DNA of 23,251 nucleotides from a virus. Shown piece by piece: positions 2,658 through 22,829 of this stretch; position 1 is the stretch's first letter; each line of letters begins with the position of its first letter. The notes beneath the pieces were generated by a model. The model saw only the letters and a list, made by a program, of their open reading frames with translations. It was not told the origin of the DNA and did not search any database. The translations under genes were made by a program, and so were the position numbers. The stretch lies in IMG/VR virus record IMGVR_UViG_3300009448_000016, positions 1 through 23,251 of that record. One strand, written 5' to 3'.

Positions 2658-4098
2658 AGCGATCCCGAGGCTGCTCGACTGGGTCGAGCAAAGCTTCCCG
2701 CAGTACAAGCGCTTCGACTACTTCACGCCGTACGCCGAAGCGATCGAATGCGCGGCACGTGGAGAGCCGCAGAACATCGCGTTTGCCGGGCCTCCCCAAC
2801 ATGGCAAATCGGTTTTCACGATCTGCGCGCTGCTGTGGATAGCGACGTTCTATCCCGGCAAGCGGCACGCGTACGTCACGTACAACCAGACCAAGACCGA
2901 AGAGGTCGCGAAGGATTTTCAGTCACACGCCAGGCAGATCGGCCTCGCTGTCAGCGGCACGCTCGACAAGACGGAGCTGCCCGGCGGGACGACGATCAAG
3001 TTCACGTCGATCAGCGGCGGCATCACTGGCTCTGCGGTCGACGGACTCTGTGTCATCGACGACCCGATCAAGGGCGCGAAGGAAGCGCGCTCGGCGACGG
3101 TTCGATCCGACCTCGTGCGCTGGTACCAGCGCGAAGCGTATACGCGCCGGCACCCATCAACGTCGTACATCACGATGGCCACGCGGTGGCACGTCGAGGA
3201 CCTGTCCGGCTACCTGATCAAGCATCAGGGCTACCGGTACATCAACCTGAAGTGCATCGCCGAACCGGCGAATGACAACGACATCGGGCCGGACGGCCGC
3301 GTCATCAGCGACCCGCTGAAGCGGTTCCCTGGCCAATCGCTAAGCCCGCTCAAGCCGCCTGAGTTCTTCGTTCGTGAGCGCGCGGACCGCGACACTTGGT
3401 ACTCGATGTACCAGGGCGAGCCGCAGCCCATCGGCGGCGAAGTCTTCCGAGCTCCTGCTTTCTACAAACTCAGCGCGCTTCCGACGCGCGGCTACAAGAT
3501 CGTCTTCGGTCTCGACCTCTCGTACACCAAGAAAACCGCAAGCGATTACTCCGTTTGCGTCGAGGTGTGGGCGGTACGCGATCCGAAGCTCCGCGACTAC
3601 AAGGACCCGAACGACAAGATCGGCACGCCGGTCATTTGGTTCTACGTTCGCGAGGTCCACCGCAAGCAGGTCGACGCGCCGAGTTTCACTCTCACGCTCA
3701 AGGCCAAGAAGGCGGAGCGTCCCGGTGTTCGGTTCTACTGGTATGCACCAGGGACCGAGGCGGGCGCAGGCGACTTCATCAAGAAGTCGGGCATCCCGCT
3801 CACGGTGCTCAATCCGAACGGCGACAAATTCATTCGCGCGACGCGGCACACCGCTCCGCTCTGGAACATGGGCCGCGTGCTTCTGCCGCAGGCCGACGAC
3901 GACAGCGACGAGACGATCGGCTCGAGCTTCGATTGGGTGAACGTGCTGATCGATGAGGTCACGTCCTTCACCGGCGTGAGCGATGTGCACGACGACATCG
4001 TCGATGCGCTGGTGGTCGCTGTCGATCAGCTGCTCAAGCAGTTCGCAAGCGACGACGGAGGCTCGCGCGTCGAATCGATCAAGCTCTCCGACCGCTGA
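2605..4098 (+). CDS. terL: Terminase large subunit, 497 aa
   Basis: This is the ATP-driven packaging motor and headful or site nuclease. Residue numbers are from the GTG at 2605. The Walker A motif is GPPQHGKS (62-69), the Walker B-like strand is LCVIDD (148-153), and a motif III-like SYITMATRWH lies at 187-196. The C-terminal RNase H-fold nuclease shows its first acid in FGLDLSY (D304) and later acids in VHDDIVDAL (about D463, D464 and D467). Length is normal for the family. The start is uncertain: GTG 2605 overlaps terS by 53 bases, GTG 2536 has a better GAGG at 2526-2529 but would overlap by 122 bases, and GTG 2626 is also possible. Confidence 0.93.
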   Translation: MARRHLQVIKKDQPRSTEAIPRLLDWVEQSFPQYKRFDYFTPYAEAIECAARGEPQNIAFAGPPQHGKSVFTICALLWIATFYPGKRHAYVTYNQTKTEEVAKDFQSHARQIGLAVSGTLDKTELPGGTTIKFTSISGGITGSAVDGLCVIDDPIKGAKEARSATVRSDLVRWYQREAYTRRHPSTSYITMATRWHVEDLSGYLIKHQGYRYINLKCIAEPANDNDIGPDGRVISDPLKRFPGQSLSPLKPPEFFVRERADRDTWYSMYQGEPQPIGGEVFRAPAFYKLSALPTRGYKIVFGLDLSYTKKTASDYSVCVEVWAVRDPKLRDYKDPNDKIGTPVIWFYVREVHRKQVDAPSFTLTLKAKKAERPGVRFYWYAPGTEAGAGDFIKKSGIPLTVLNPNGDKFIRATRHTAPLWNMGRVLLPQADDDSDETIGSSFDWVNVLIDEVTSFTGVSDVHDDIVDALVVAVDQLLKQFASDDGGSRVESIKLSDR

Positions 4099-10607: not shown

Positions 10608-11861
10608 ATGGCTCGCACCACCAAGGCAGATGTCTTTCAGCCGGAGATCCTCGAAGAGACCGTCCAGGGGCGCTTCGCTCAAAAGGACGCGTTCAAGGGC
10701 TCCATTCTCGAGCGCTCGGGCGCCGTCATCGTTCGCCCGAACTTCGCTGAGAAGGATCCCAAGCGCATCGGCAGCACGATCCGCATGCCGTACTTCGGCA
10801 CCGTCGGCGAGTTCGTCGCGCGCACCGATGGCAACGCCGTCGACTTCAACGCCATCGGTCAGATGACCGAAGACGCGACGATCGGCTGCGACTCGCTGGG
10901 CTTCGAGGTCACGCAGTGGGCCGAGTCGAGCGCTCGCGACGAGGATGTCGACGCGTACGACGAGTGCACGGACCAGATCGTCGAGGCGGGCGTCCGCGCG
11001 ATGGACAAGGTGATCATCTCCGCAGCGTCGACTTCGCCGCTCGTGCTCGACATGCACAGTCTGAGCGCTCCGGTCATGATGAGCTACGACCTGATGGTCG
11101 AGGGCAAGACGACCTTCTGGGGCGACGACCAGAGCGACATCGTCGCGGCCGTTGTCCACAGCCGCACCAAGGCTGACCTGATGAAGCTGAAGTACAGCGA
11201 CGGTCGGCCGATGCTCACCGAGAAGGCGAGCGAGTCGGACTTCGACCGCTTCTGCGGCATCGCGCTCGTGCTGAGCGACAAGGCGCCGCTCGCCGGCTCG
11301 ACGATGAGCGCGGTGACAGCCGCTGGCACCACGCCTCCGACGGTCACGCTCGCCGGCACGCCGCTCGGCCCGTGGAACCTCGAGATCGACATCGTCACCG
11401 GCGGCCTGTCGAACGGCACGGCGACCTTCCGCTTCCGCGTGAAGGGCCAGCTGTGGTCGGCCACCTACGCTGTTCCGAATGGCGGCGGCGCCATCTTGCT
11501 CGACGACAGTAAGCAGGCGGCCGTGCTGCCGATCACCAGCCTCGGCACCGCGGACTCGTTGGTCGGCGTGAACGGCAAGACCGGCATCACGGCGACGTTC
11601 GCGAACGGCACGTACGCCGCGGACAACTCGTACACCGCGACGGCGCGCCTCAAGACCGAGACGCAGCTCATCAAGAAGGGTGCCTTGGCCTTCTGGTACA
11701 ACCAGAACGCTCTGCGCGTCCTGACCGACGGCGACATCTCGCGCGACAGCAAGCTCGCGGCGATGCACCTCTACCGCTCGGGTCACTGCTACCGCCGCAC
11801 CCGCTCGGGCAACATGCCCGGCGTCGTGCGCATCCAGCACAACGTCAGCGGCTACCTCTGA
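10608..11861 (+). CDS. Major capsid protein (HK97-fold) with inserted beta domain, 417 aa
   Basis: Position directly after the protease/scaffold, length, and the sequence MARTTKADVFQPEILEETV mark this as the major capsid protein. An N-arm (1-45), a beta-rich E-loop-like part (FGTVGEFVARTDG) and an A-domain-like segment (AMHLYRSGHCYRRTRSGNMPG) fit the HK97 fold. Residues 238-348 form an extra module: PTVTLAG, FRFRV, LWSATYAV and the closing TFANGTYAADNSYTAT. A related module occurs in the tail sheath. It splits the capsid fold between DKAPLAG and LKTETQLIKKGALAFWY, so it probably projects from the shell surface. The fold call rests on context and pattern. Confidence 0.88.
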   Translation: MARTTKADVFQPEILEETVQGRFAQKDAFKGSILERSGAVIVRPNFAEKDPKRIGSTIRMPYFGTVGEFVARTDGNAVDFNAIGQMTEDATIGCDSLGFEVTQWAESSARDEDVDAYDECTDQIVEAGVRAMDKVIISAASTSPLVLDMHSLSAPVMMSYDLMVEGKTTFWGDDQSDIVAAVVHSRTKADLMKLKYSDGRPMLTEKASESDFDRFCGIALVLSDKAPLAGSTMSAVTAAGTTPPTVTLAGTPLGPWNLEIDIVTGGLSNGTATFRFRVKGQLWSATYAVPNGGGAILLDDSKQAAVLPITSLGTADSLVGVNGKTGITATFANGTYAADNSYTATARLKTETQLIKKGALAFWYNQNALRVLTDGDISRDSKLAAMHLYRSGHCYRRTRSGNMPGVVRIQHNVSGYL

Positions 11862-12792: not shown

Positions 12793-12844
12793 TCAACGCG
12801 CGCGCGTCGCGCTGCCACGTTCCACACCACCAAGGATTTTGCTC

Positions 12845-13537
12845 ATGGGCACTTCGCAGAACGGCTCTTTCGTTCCCGCCGCCAGGGAGATCGCCACGGG
12901 CGTCCTCCAGAGCCAGGCCGGCAATCTGGTCGCAACCGACCGAGCGGCCCTCAAGACGATCGGCGCCGATGTCCGCTACCGCGGCATGGAAGCGCTCGTG
13001 CTCTCCGATCGCTCGCGCTGGGTCTTCGACGACGCCGCGCTGGTCGCCGTGATCGATGCGACCGAGAACCTCGTGCTCACGCCCGACGGCCTGAGCAGCG
13101 CCGCCGGCCGCTGGCTGCGCGCGGATTCATCGTTCGTGATGAAGCTGCCTGTGGCATTCGGTCTCGCGAACAACGCGGTGATCATGACGGTGCCCGAGGG
13201 CTTCGCGATCCGCCCGACCGGCATGCCCTACTGGGAGACCACGGTGGGCTGGACCGGCGGCGCGAGCTCGGCCATCGGCATCTCGTCCAGCCGTACAGGC
13301 TTCACGGCCGATGGCGCCGTGCTCGGCGGTGCCGCTGGCGATGTCGCGGCCACGCTCGTTGCGGGCATCCAGCCGGGCACCGTCGGCGTCGGCTTCGACT
13401 CCCTCGCCGAGATCCAAGCGGGCCTCTTCGAGGAGGGCGACACCTTCATTTACGACGAAATCACGAGCGCGTTCACCGCGGGCTCGGGCTTCGTCTGCAT
13501 CCCCGTCTCGATCGCGGTCGCGCCTGTCACTCCGTAA
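12845..13537 (+). CDS. Predicted beta-rich virion surface protein, 230 aa
   Basis: ATG at 12845 follows AAGGA at 12832-12836. After a helical start (GTSQNGSFVPAAREIATGVL) the protein is mostly beta strands with Gly/Ala/Ser turns (SFVMKLPVAFGLANNAVIMTV, AAGDVAATLVAGIQPGTVGVGF, TAGSGFVCIPVSIAV), the style of phage decoration and fibre-like beta-sandwich proteins. The closing part resembles jelly-roll modules that end in a run of hydrophobic strands. No catalytic motif is visible. It is probably a head decoration or head-fibre protein, since it lies between the capsid and the connector genes. Confidence 0.65.
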   Translation: MGTSQNGSFVPAAREIATGVLQSQAGNLVATDRAALKTIGADVRYRGMEALVLSDRSRWVFDDAALVAVIDATENLVLTPDGLSSAAGRWLRADSSFVMKLPVAFGLANNAVIMTVPEGFAIRPTGMPYWETTVGWTGGASSAIGISSSRTGFTADGAVLGGAAGDVAATLVAGIQPGTVGVGFDSLAEIQAGLFEEGDTFIYDEITSAFTAGSGFVCIPVSIAVAPVTP

Positions 13538-15389: not shown

Positions 15390-15716
15390 ATGCATCTCAC
15401 TCCAGCGAAGTGGGCGGAGAAGCTCGGCTTCATCGCGCCCGCCAATCCCAATCTGCCGCAGCAAGAGCGGCACGCGAAGTGGGAGCACGCAGCGGCTGAC
15501 CGGCTCTTCGGCTGGTCGGATCACGCGTTCCACTTCCAAGCGAAGGCGGACGTCTTCGAGATCACCGAAGAGGCCTACCGCGAAGCCCTGCGCATCGCGG
15601 CCGTGTACCCGCTCGAAGCGCCAAACCTTCAAGCGCTTCCGCCGAGTCAACTCGAGCGATTCGCCGAATTCCAGCCGCGCGCCAAGTCCGCGTCGGATGA
15701 CGAGGAGAACAGCTAA
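15390..15716 (+). CDS. Small phage protein of unknown function, 108 aa
   Basis: ATG at 15390 lies 3 bases after the morphogenesis gene and its stop shares a base with the sheath start (TAATG). The sequence has a clear protein character: RHAKWEHAAADRLFGWSDHAF, an aromatic/His-rich helix, then FEITEEAYREALRIAAVYP. The C-terminus is disordered and acidic and carries a GAGGAG ribosome binding site for the sheath. Similar EHxxADxLxGW-type small proteins occur in phages, to my recollection, but I cannot name a function. Confidence 0.75.
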   Translation: MHLTPAKWAEKLGFIAPANPNLPQQERHAKWEHAAADRLFGWSDHAFHFQAKADVFEITEEAYREALRIAAVYPLEAPNLQALPPSQLERFAEFQPRAKSASDDEENS

Positions 15717-17206
15717 TGCCTGCGATTCCCTCCGCAAAGGAGAGCGTACGCGACTTCGGCACGGGGCAGTCTCAGCCCGCGTCGATGCGCGCGGTCGTGA
15801 TCGGCGCAGCGAGCGCCGGTCCATCCAATCAGCTCAACTTCTTCGGCGACACCAACACCCTGCGTGACACGCACGGCGAGGGCCCCGGCGTCGAGCAGGT
15901 CGCCAACATCATCAGCAAGGGCGGCGGCCCCGTCGGCTTCGTGCGCCCGACGACGTCGATCGCGGCCAGTAACGGCGTGGTCACGAAGACCGGCACCGGC
16001 CCCGACATCACACTCTCCGGCTCGGCCGCGCTCGACGCGCGCATCCGTGTCGAGGTGATGCGTGGCGGCGCCCTGGGCGTCGGCGCGTTCCGTTACTGCT
16101 GCGACGGCTACGACGGCGACACCGAGTCCGAGCGCACGTACAGCGAGACGATCACGATCCCGTCGGGCGGCACGTTCGCGATGCCGGGTCTCGGTATCAC
16201 GCTAACGTTCGCGTCTGGGACGTACGTCGTCGGCGACTTCTACACGGCCGACGTCGAGTGCGCCGGCATGAACGCGGGTGACCTCGCGACGGCCTTCGCG
16301 CCGCTCGCAAGCACGCCTTCGCCATGGCGCTTCGTGTCGGTCAAGACGAGCCGCGCGAACGGAGACTCGACCGCGCACGCGACGCTCGGCGCCGCGCTCC
16401 AGGCGCAGCTCACGACCATCGCCGGCACCTCGAAGTTTCGGCGCGGCATCATCTCTGCCGATGCGGGTGAGGACAGCCACGCCGCAGCCGCGGCAGCGCT
16501 CGCGAGCACAGTCGCCACGCGTCTGATGTTCCCCTACGGCATGGTGCGTCGTGCGACCGTGAAGCCGTTCCCCGGTTTCGCGTTCCCCGTCACGCACGGC
16601 GCCGATGTGTTCGCAGCTCGAGCTGCCGCGAGCCTGCTCAGTACCGACCTCAAGCGTGTGCGCAGTGGCGCGCTCGAAGAGATCGTGAAGCTCTTTCATG
16701 ACGAGTACCGGACGCCGAGCATCCTCGACGACGTCAAGGTCTCGACGCTCCGCACCTATGAGCACCTCGCGGGCTACTACATCTCGCAGGCGCGCCTGAA
16801 GAGCCCGAGCGGCTCGGACTTCAAGCTGTGGCCGCACGGCATCGTGATGGACGTCGCGTGCGAGACGGTCAATCGCATGATGACGACGTTCATCGGCGAG
16901 GGGATGCGCGTCGGCACGGCCGTGATCAACGGCATCGAGTACCCGGGCGCGCTCGATGAGCTCGACGCGGTCGACATCGAAGAAGAGGTGAGCCAAGCGC
17001 TCATTTCTCAGCTGCTCAGCCCGGTCAACGCGAAGGGCTTCTCGGGTCACGTGTCGGATCTGCGCTTCCGCATCGATCGCACGCGCAACGTGCTCAGCAC
17101 GGGAACCATCGTCGGCTTCGTCGGCATGTTGCCGCTCGCGTACGTCGACTACATCGAAACTGCGCTCGGCTTCGTGTCCGAGCTTCCTGCCGCCGCGGCG
17201 GCGTGA
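15716..17206 (+). CDS. Contractile tail sheath protein with inserted beta domain, 496 aa
   Basis: The sheath contracts to drive the tube through the envelope. Order (just before a tube-like gene), length and the C-terminal half (LRTYEHLAGYYISQARLKSP, FRIDRTRNVLSTGTIVGFVG and a terminal beta strand) fit a DUF2586/Mu gpL-type sheath. A strong GAGGAG at 15702-15707 supports the start. Residues 86-182 form an inserted module with PDITLSG, VEVMRGGALGVGAFRY and TFASGTYVVGDFYTAD, matching the module in the capsid protein. It would decorate the tail surface. Two adjacent Cys (CC at 128-129) within the module are unusual. The sheath call is from context and pattern. Confidence 0.82.
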   Translation: MPAIPSAKESVRDFGTGQSQPASMRAVVIGAASAGPSNQLNFFGDTNTLRDTHGEGPGVEQVANIISKGGGPVGFVRPTTSIAASNGVVTKTGTGPDITLSGSAALDARIRVEVMRGGALGVGAFRYCCDGYDGDTESERTYSETITIPSGGTFAMPGLGITLTFASGTYVVGDFYTADVECAGMNAGDLATAFAPLASTPSPWRFVSVKTSRANGDSTAHATLGAALQAQLTTIAGTSKFRRGIISADAGEDSHAAAAAALASTVATRLMFPYGMVRRATVKPFPGFAFPVTHGADVFAARAAASLLSTDLKRVRSGALEEIVKLFHDEYRTPSILDDVKVSTLRTYEHLAGYYISQARLKSPSGSDFKLWPHGIVMDVACETVNRMMTTFIGEGMRVGTAVINGIEYPGALDELDAVDIEEEVSQALISQLLSPVNAKGFSGHVSDLRFRIDRTRNVLSTGTIVGFVGMLPLAYVDYIETALGFVSELPAAAAA

Positions 17207-21822: not shown

Positions 21823-22293
21823 GTGGAACCATCGGAAGCACTGCAGCGATTCATCCGCTGGGTGATGCGTGACACGATCTACCACGGCTCGTACGTCGCC
21901 ACGGTCGAGCGCCAGCACGACAACGACACGGTCGACCTAACACCCGAGGACGAGCGGGTACGCGGCACCGGCTTATCGAATGTACCGATCCGGCACGGCA
22001 TGCCCGGCGTGCGCGTGCGCGTGCAAGTTGGCGCGAAGGTGATGCTCGAGTTCGCGTCTGGCGACCCGAAGCAGCCGTTCGCGACGTTCTGGGAATCGGG
22101 CGCGATTGAGAGCTTGAGCTTCGACGGCGGCGATAGGCCGATCGCTCGCGTAGGCGACATCGTTACCGTGTTTTGGCCGCCATCGGTCCCTGTGGTGGGC
22201 ACGATCGGCGTCCTACCGTTCACCGGCACGATGACGATCACCACGCCGGCCGTGGGCATCATCGACAGCGGCGCGCCGCGGGTGCGTGCCTGA
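21823..22293 (+). CDS. Baseplate spike protein (gpV-like) with PAAR-like end, copy 1, 156 aa
   Basis: Spikes puncture the outer membrane. The N-terminal part (ALQRFIRWVMRDTIYHGSYV, then ATVERQHDNDTVDLTP) reads like the OB-fold of gpV/Mu gp45-type spikes. Near residue 104 comes DRPIARVGDIVTV, and the end is GIIDSGAPRVRA; PxARVGD and GSPxV-type turns are features of PAAR spike-tip proteins. The GTG at 21823 lies 3 bases after the upstream stop. The next gene is a close relative with the same start and layout, so this is one of a tandem pair. PAAR assignment is pattern-based. Confidence 0.75.
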   Translation: MEPSEALQRFIRWVMRDTIYHGSYVATVERQHDNDTVDLTPEDERVRGTGLSNVPIRHGMPGVRVRVQVGAKVMLEFASGDPKQPFATFWESGAIESLSFDGGDRPIARVGDIVTVFWPPSVPVVGTIGVLPFTGTMTITTPAVGIIDSGAPRVRA

Positions 22294-22829
22294 TGGAGCC
22301 CGGCGACGCGTTCGCGCGGATCATCCGCTGGGTGATGCGCGACACCACGTTTTTCAAGGTCTACGGCGCGACCGTCGAAGTCGATCACGGTGACTCGGTC
22401 GACCTCACGCCAGACGATCCGGAGATGCGCGGACTCGGCCTCACGCGCGTGCCCAAGGGCGCGGGCGAGCTCGCCGACAGCTGCCTCGTTCAGCCGGGCC
22501 TGCGCTGCCTTTTCGGCTTTCGCAACGGCGATCCCGCTAAACCCATCGTTCGTGCCTGGGAATACAAGCGCGGCAGCGCGCACGTCATCCTCGATGGCGG
22601 CGGCTCACCGGTCGCGCGCGTCGGCGACCTAATCAAGGTCCTCACCTTGCCTGCGCTGCCCGTCGTCGGAGTCATCGGCGGCATCACGCAGAATCCGAAC
22701 CCAAGCCCGCCGCCGGCCACCATCGACGTCGTCGTGCCGGCCGGCACGCCGCTGACGCTCGCGGTGGCGACGATCGCGGTGCCGGTCAACGGCGTAATCT
22801 CGAAAGGCGCGGCAAGGGTGAGAGCGTGA
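22293..22829 (+). CDS. Baseplate spike protein with PAAR-like end, copy 2, 178 aa
   Basis: ATG at 22293 shares a base with the stop of copy 1 (TGATG). The N-terminus (MEPGDAFARIIRWVMRDTTF) matches copy 1 nearly residue for residue in the RWVMRDT region, and SPVARVGDLIKV (105-116) and the end (GVISKGAARVRA) align with it too. It is 22 residues longer, mainly through a Pro-rich insert (TQNPNPSPPPATIDVVVPAG) before the final strands. The loop at 56-70 differs (GAGELADSCLVQPG). The two probably arose by duplication and may form a heterotrimer or serve alternative tips. Confidence 0.75.
   Translation: MEPGDAFARIIRWVMRDTTFFKVYGATVEVDHGDSVDLTPDDPEMRGLGLTRVPKGAGELADSCLVQPGLRCLFGFRNGDPAKPIVRAWEYKRGSAHVILDGGGSPVARVGDLIKVLTLPALPVVGVIGGITQNPNPSPPPATIDVVVPAGTPLTLAVATIAVPVNGVISKGAARVRA

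Follow-up and report, generated by a model that had tools for sequence, protein, structure and literature searches.

Ig-like domains of tailed phages are described as promiscuous and are thought to be accessory and adhesive (Fraser 2006, via passages of PMC7602432 and PMC9230969). A survey summarized in part of PMC7602432 assigns them to five classes of carrier, namely major head, major tail, baseplate, fibre and decoration proteins, and beta-sandwich domains that occur promiscuously on the heads and tails of phages are already a known kind (passages of PMC7602432). Extra domains of sheath proteins are located away from the tail tube, and a part in adhesion or stability has been suggested for them (passages of PMC9230969), and the sheaths of Meiothermus phage MMP17 and Faecalibacterium phage FP_Mushu have been described as two-domain proteins (Evseev et al. 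2022, passages of PMC9230969).

The module described here, about 95-105 aa long, resembles the phage Ig-like domains in being a small beta-sandwich common to unrelated virion proteins. However, it gives no reliable Pfam Ig-like match, the solved fold closest to it is FlgL D2, it also occurs in contractile sheaths and neck-region proteins, and it is internal to its carrier, not a frameshifted tail end. As in the phi29 capsid with its BIG2 domain (PMC7602432), an HK97-fold capsid bears an extra beta domain, but the module belongs to a different domain family and is also present in the sheath of the same phage. The MMP17 and FP_Mushu sheaths carry the module, and the sheath copy is the extra domain in the sense of PMC9230969, whose passages on this domain make no connection to capsids, baseplate or other virion proteins. 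What is new is that one family, absent from the domain libraries searched, connects shell, contractile sheath, baseplate and other virion proteins of many phages, extending the known pattern to sheath and neck-region proteins. A literature search, with most subscription journals outside its scope, found no paper in which a common domain ties the sheath to the capsid. Most structural proteins of phages lack annotation, and the domains that they share offer a handle on how virions acquire new surfaces. For annotators the module is a new family, for structural biologists it suggests a testable view of what decorates heads and tails, and for evolutionary biologists it is an example of domains exchanged among the genes of one virion, with a position on a tree for each gain.

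One homologous module in capsid and sheath

The gene order of the window, by which we mean the whole stretch of DNA analysed (23,251 bases), is the usual head-to-tail order of a contractile-tailed phage. Comparison of the module profile with the window ORFs identified carriers only in the capsid and sheath ORFs, whose genes lie ~4 kb apart in one genome. The features are as follows.

10608..11861, + strand: major capsid protein, 417 aa, HK97 fold with inserted module; phrog_247 (major head protein), E 7.1e-12
11298..11663, + strand: capsid copy of the module, residues 231-352, set against 14 aligned module-less capsids; profile hit, E 5.5e-25
15716..17206, + strand: tail sheath protein, DUF2586 family, 496 aa; PF10758, E 2.7e-13; phrog_907 (tail sheath), E 1.7e-10
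15965..16279, + strand: sheath copy of the module, residues 84-188, conserved among sheath relatives; profile hit, E 5.4e-30

The window sheath scored 50.2 bits with PF10758 against a gathering cut-off of 26.4 bits, identifying it as a DUF2586 tail sheath. The segment singled out by an earlier sequence-only reading, 15971-16261, falls inside the sheath copy and corresponds exactly to sheath residues 86-182, and all four motif pairs quoted there are present in the capsid and sheath translations. Elsewhere in the window, two adjacent genes (21823-22293 and 22293-22829) encode paralogous products (41% identity, E 3e-38) resembling tandem spike or baseplate proteins, and 12839-13537, between the capsid and sheath genes, encodes a 232-aa protein for which neither Pfam nor PHROGs gave a match.

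Capsid residues 231-352 and sheath residues 84-188 are one homologous module of ~100 aa. BLASTP of the two window proteins aligned capsid 236-344 with sheath 89-178 (27% identity, E 7e-5). A profile built from sheath modules only found the window capsid among the window ORFs (E 1.3e-15), and a profile built from the capsid inserts of other phages found the window sheath (E 3.7e-10). With the sheath profile, the real capsid segment scored 56.5 bits, compared to 9.7 bits for the best of ~2000 shuffles, and among reversed decoys (19,002 ORFs) the best E-values were 0.053 with the sheath-module profile and 4.1 with the capsid-insert profile. Profile-profile comparison of 14 capsid with 60 sheath modules gave a probability of 99.6 and an E-value of 5.2e-24 over 89 columns. 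Chance similarity of the two segments was thus ruled out by the profile E-values, shuffles and reversed decoys. Searches with single window proteins found no relatives, whereas alignment-based scans did recover them.

The module is a regular extra domain of DUF2586-type sheaths, single or as a tandem double, and sits after the first core segment. Among 88 sheath reading frames, some of them near-identical, it was present once in 76, in tandem in 11 and absent in 1, frequencies that are biased upward because module motifs were used in the sheath search. Sheath relatives from Thermus, Meiothermus, Myxococcus and Faecalibacterium phages retain it; among cultured carriers, Thermus phage Riverbug has a sheath copy, and Myxococcus phage Mx4 has one in the sheath and one in the baseplate. 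In the capsid, the module is a clean insert between a strand ending in 'SDxxP' and the strand 'GALAFWYN'. Of the 28 aligned capsids, 14 have it and 14 show just a short loop at this site. The module-less capsids are 283-294 aa long and include those of Thermus and Meiothermus phages, and the window capsid copy has an additional low-confidence loop around residues 300-320. An intein-like explanation was set aside, as the module is a normal domain of nearly all sheaths found.

Predicted structure and nearest folds

We built the capsid model from capsid sequences alone and the sheath-module model from sheath modules alone. The AF2 pLDDT was 84.3 for the capsid and 93.7 for the sheath module, and both models contain six strands that agree in order and in aligned position. 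In a library of predicted viral structures, both matched the same 472-aa protein model, A0A411CVZ4 (capsid model: E 8.5e-7, 26% identity over 137 columns; sheath-module model: E 1.7e-7, 39% identity), which by its length and identity we take to be the MMP17 sheath. The capsid model has the HK97 fold (VIA Z 16.4 to 9eg4 over 246 residues, rmsd 3.9; Z 13.2 to HK97 itself, 2gp1). The sequence-only reading had held that capsid and sheath, two unrelated folds, share one domain, which a non-significant profile comparison or different predicted folds would have contradicted. BLASTP, the separate-family profiles, the significant profile-profile comparison and the models all agree that the HK97-fold capsid and the DUF2586 sheath carry the same module.

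The module model is a confident beta-sandwich (pLDDT ~94). Its closest solved fold was the D2 domain of Xanthomonas FlgL (VIA Z 8.4, rmsd 2.3, 82 residues), with a Z only slightly above the range of chance arrangements or unrelated beta domains. FlgK, flagellin and FliD followed, the top eight rows all being flagellar proteins, and Wzc came next (Z 5.2); this concurrence of several flagellar proteins is notable. Foldseek matched a phage protein named SbsA Ig-like (E 0.011), and against PDB it returned nothing at E < 0.001. In FlgL and FlgK, D2 is an inserted outer domain on a polymer. Its fold matches that of the module, but searches of 30 FlgL and 15 FlgK sequences, drawn from two bacterial phyla, with hhalign and hmmsearch detected no sequence homology, and E. 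coli FlgK 325-418 reached no more than 7 bits. Since the sequence tests against both families were negative, we claim similarity of fold and not membership of a family, and the idea of homology to flagellar D2 domains was set aside.

No Pfam, PHROGs or NCBIfam family describes the module. In Pfam, 60 sheath modules gave no convincing match (best: Big_1, one member, E 0.005), and neither PHROGs and NCBIfam nor sequence searches of the PDB produced a reliable hit. An Asp-box-like 'SxDGGxTWS' hairpin matched BNR and sialidase repeats weakly; the sialidase hits were confined to the hairpin, and assignment to a known family was rejected. The weak match would fit contact with surface polymers, although hairpins of this kind may be structural only.

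Other carriers and their distribution

We scanned the loci of relatives with the module profile for further carriers. The results revealed the module in several unrelated virion protein classes, namely capsid, sheath, baseplate J, DUF3383 sheath, neck-region and LamG-like proteins, so that a search among related phages, as proposed in the sequence-only reading, found it in many classes. Baseplate J carriers, identified by PF04865 (E 4.2e-19) and phrog_6, bear the module at the N-terminus, in the middle or at both places. A DUF3383-type sheath (L107, 9539-11170; PF11863, E 1.8e-23; phrog_205) also contains it, and as this is a family other than DUF2586, sheaths may have gained the module more than once. 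Neck-region carriers are unnamed proteins immediately upstream of the sheath gene (L064 and L065), a spike-like protein in L105 has two copies, and LamG-like carriers occur in L106, L109, L112 and L126, of which L126 alone matched Pfam (PF13385, E 1e-4, under its cut-off); the spike, LamG and neck labels rest partly on gene position and sequence appearance, as several of these proteins gave no clear PHROGs or Pfam hit. An unnamed protein directly after the capsid carries the module in L046 and L064, and gp97 of phi38:1, annotated as a virion structural protein, carries it as well. Locus L064, which shares a contig with L104 and L117, has four copies, in the capsid, the next gene, the neck region and the sheath.

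Tail or adaptor proteins form a further carrier group. Three related proteins of ~415 aa (L134, 7365-8606; L137, 7338-8570; L138, 6707-7969) have one module each, and one stretch of these proteins matches tail-fibre families.

Ten bacterial genomes with such a sheath each gave a single module match, located in a frame of sheath length, and within one phylum 4 of 101 genomes matched, two strongly and two marginally. These results indicate that the module is mainly a virion domain. The sole apparently cellular carrier seen lies on a human gut contig (L113, 6249-7184); it combines two module copies with what appear to be a signal peptide and a C-terminal membrane anchor, and a signal-peptidase-like ORF follows it.

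Possible function and history

We infer that the module is displayed outside head and tail, because the extra domains of sheaths are set apart from the tube (passages of PMC9230969) and because the capsid copy is inserted into a loop, in agreement with the surface location put forward in the sequence-only reading. The glycan binding or virion protection suggested there may be a role of the module. The most likely reading, to which our analysis gives an even chance, is that the module is an exposed accessory domain, probably making weak contacts with polymers, that was transferred long ago and then inherited. Its ends presumably lie close together, so it could fit into loops without disturbing the host fold, and many copies would be displayed on the outside of head and tail. 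There it would most likely make many weak outer contacts with polymers on host or other surfaces, much as has been proposed for the promiscuous phage Ig-like domains (passages of PMC9230969 and PMC7602432), and cementing between subunits would be the main alternative or a second role. Against this proposal, many close relatives do without the capsid copy. A broader version, which we consider unlikely, would make the module a mobile, virion-specific, unnamed domain of flagellar-D2 fold that gives head, neck, sheath, baseplate and spike a common outer surface and a shared adhesion coat.

If the module instead served as structural cement, it would stabilize contacts of adjacent subunits within the capsid and within the sheath, a role suggested for sheath domain II of phage 812 (passages of PMC9230969). 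Its presence in 87 of 88 sheath reading frames, 11 of them tandem, in a search that favoured carriers, fits such a role. However, the same module occurs in spike-like and LamG-like proteins and at varied positions in baseplate J, which makes a common neighbour unlikely, and capsids of the heat-exposed Thermus and Meiothermus phages lack it; we regard the cement reading as possible but doubtful. It is quite improbable that the module is a neutral passenger, spreading because it folds well and loops tolerate it, with no shared function. Its very varied carriers and positions and its optional presence in the capsid are what a passenger would show, but the sheath module is conserved over long divergence, and on the capsid-core tree the capsid copy is retained in 12 diverse capsids of one group.

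The accessory-domain reading includes an old transfer of the domain among virion genes and among phages, which would have been followed by inheritance within each gene. On the capsid-core tree (28 rows, insert columns removed), presence of the insert requires 2 changes, the second due to L103. In the module tree, which has 123 rows and about 100 columns, so few that deep branching is unresolved and only well-supported tips were used, the window capsid copy grouped with the L014 capsid copy (support 100/90, 80% identity) and, with L014 and three further capsids, in a group of five capsids (99/97), whereas the window sheath copy grouped with other sheaths. Across the 14 phages with both copies, capsid and sheath modules of the same phage were 31.7% identical compared to 31.4% between phages (permutation P = 0.40). 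The two changes, the module-tree grouping and these identities indicate that the capsid insert is old and inherited. The sequence-only reading had suggested copying between genes within this phage; a recent sheath-to-capsid duplication has almost no probability, despite the proximity of the two genes and local-looking copies elsewhere (the post-capsid gene of L046 and L064; L081), since the module tree and the identity comparison put the window's two copies in different groups, and it was rejected. The module is a travelling add-on of phage particles, not a fresh copy made in one virus.

Local copying may have taken place in other phages. The module copies of the post-capsid gene cluster with those of capsids, the L046 one beside the L064 capsid copy (99/81). 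Just upstream of the sheath gene of L081, a 98-aa ORF (3296-3589) carries a module copy nearest to that of its own sheath, and is perhaps a partial duplication of the sheath gene.
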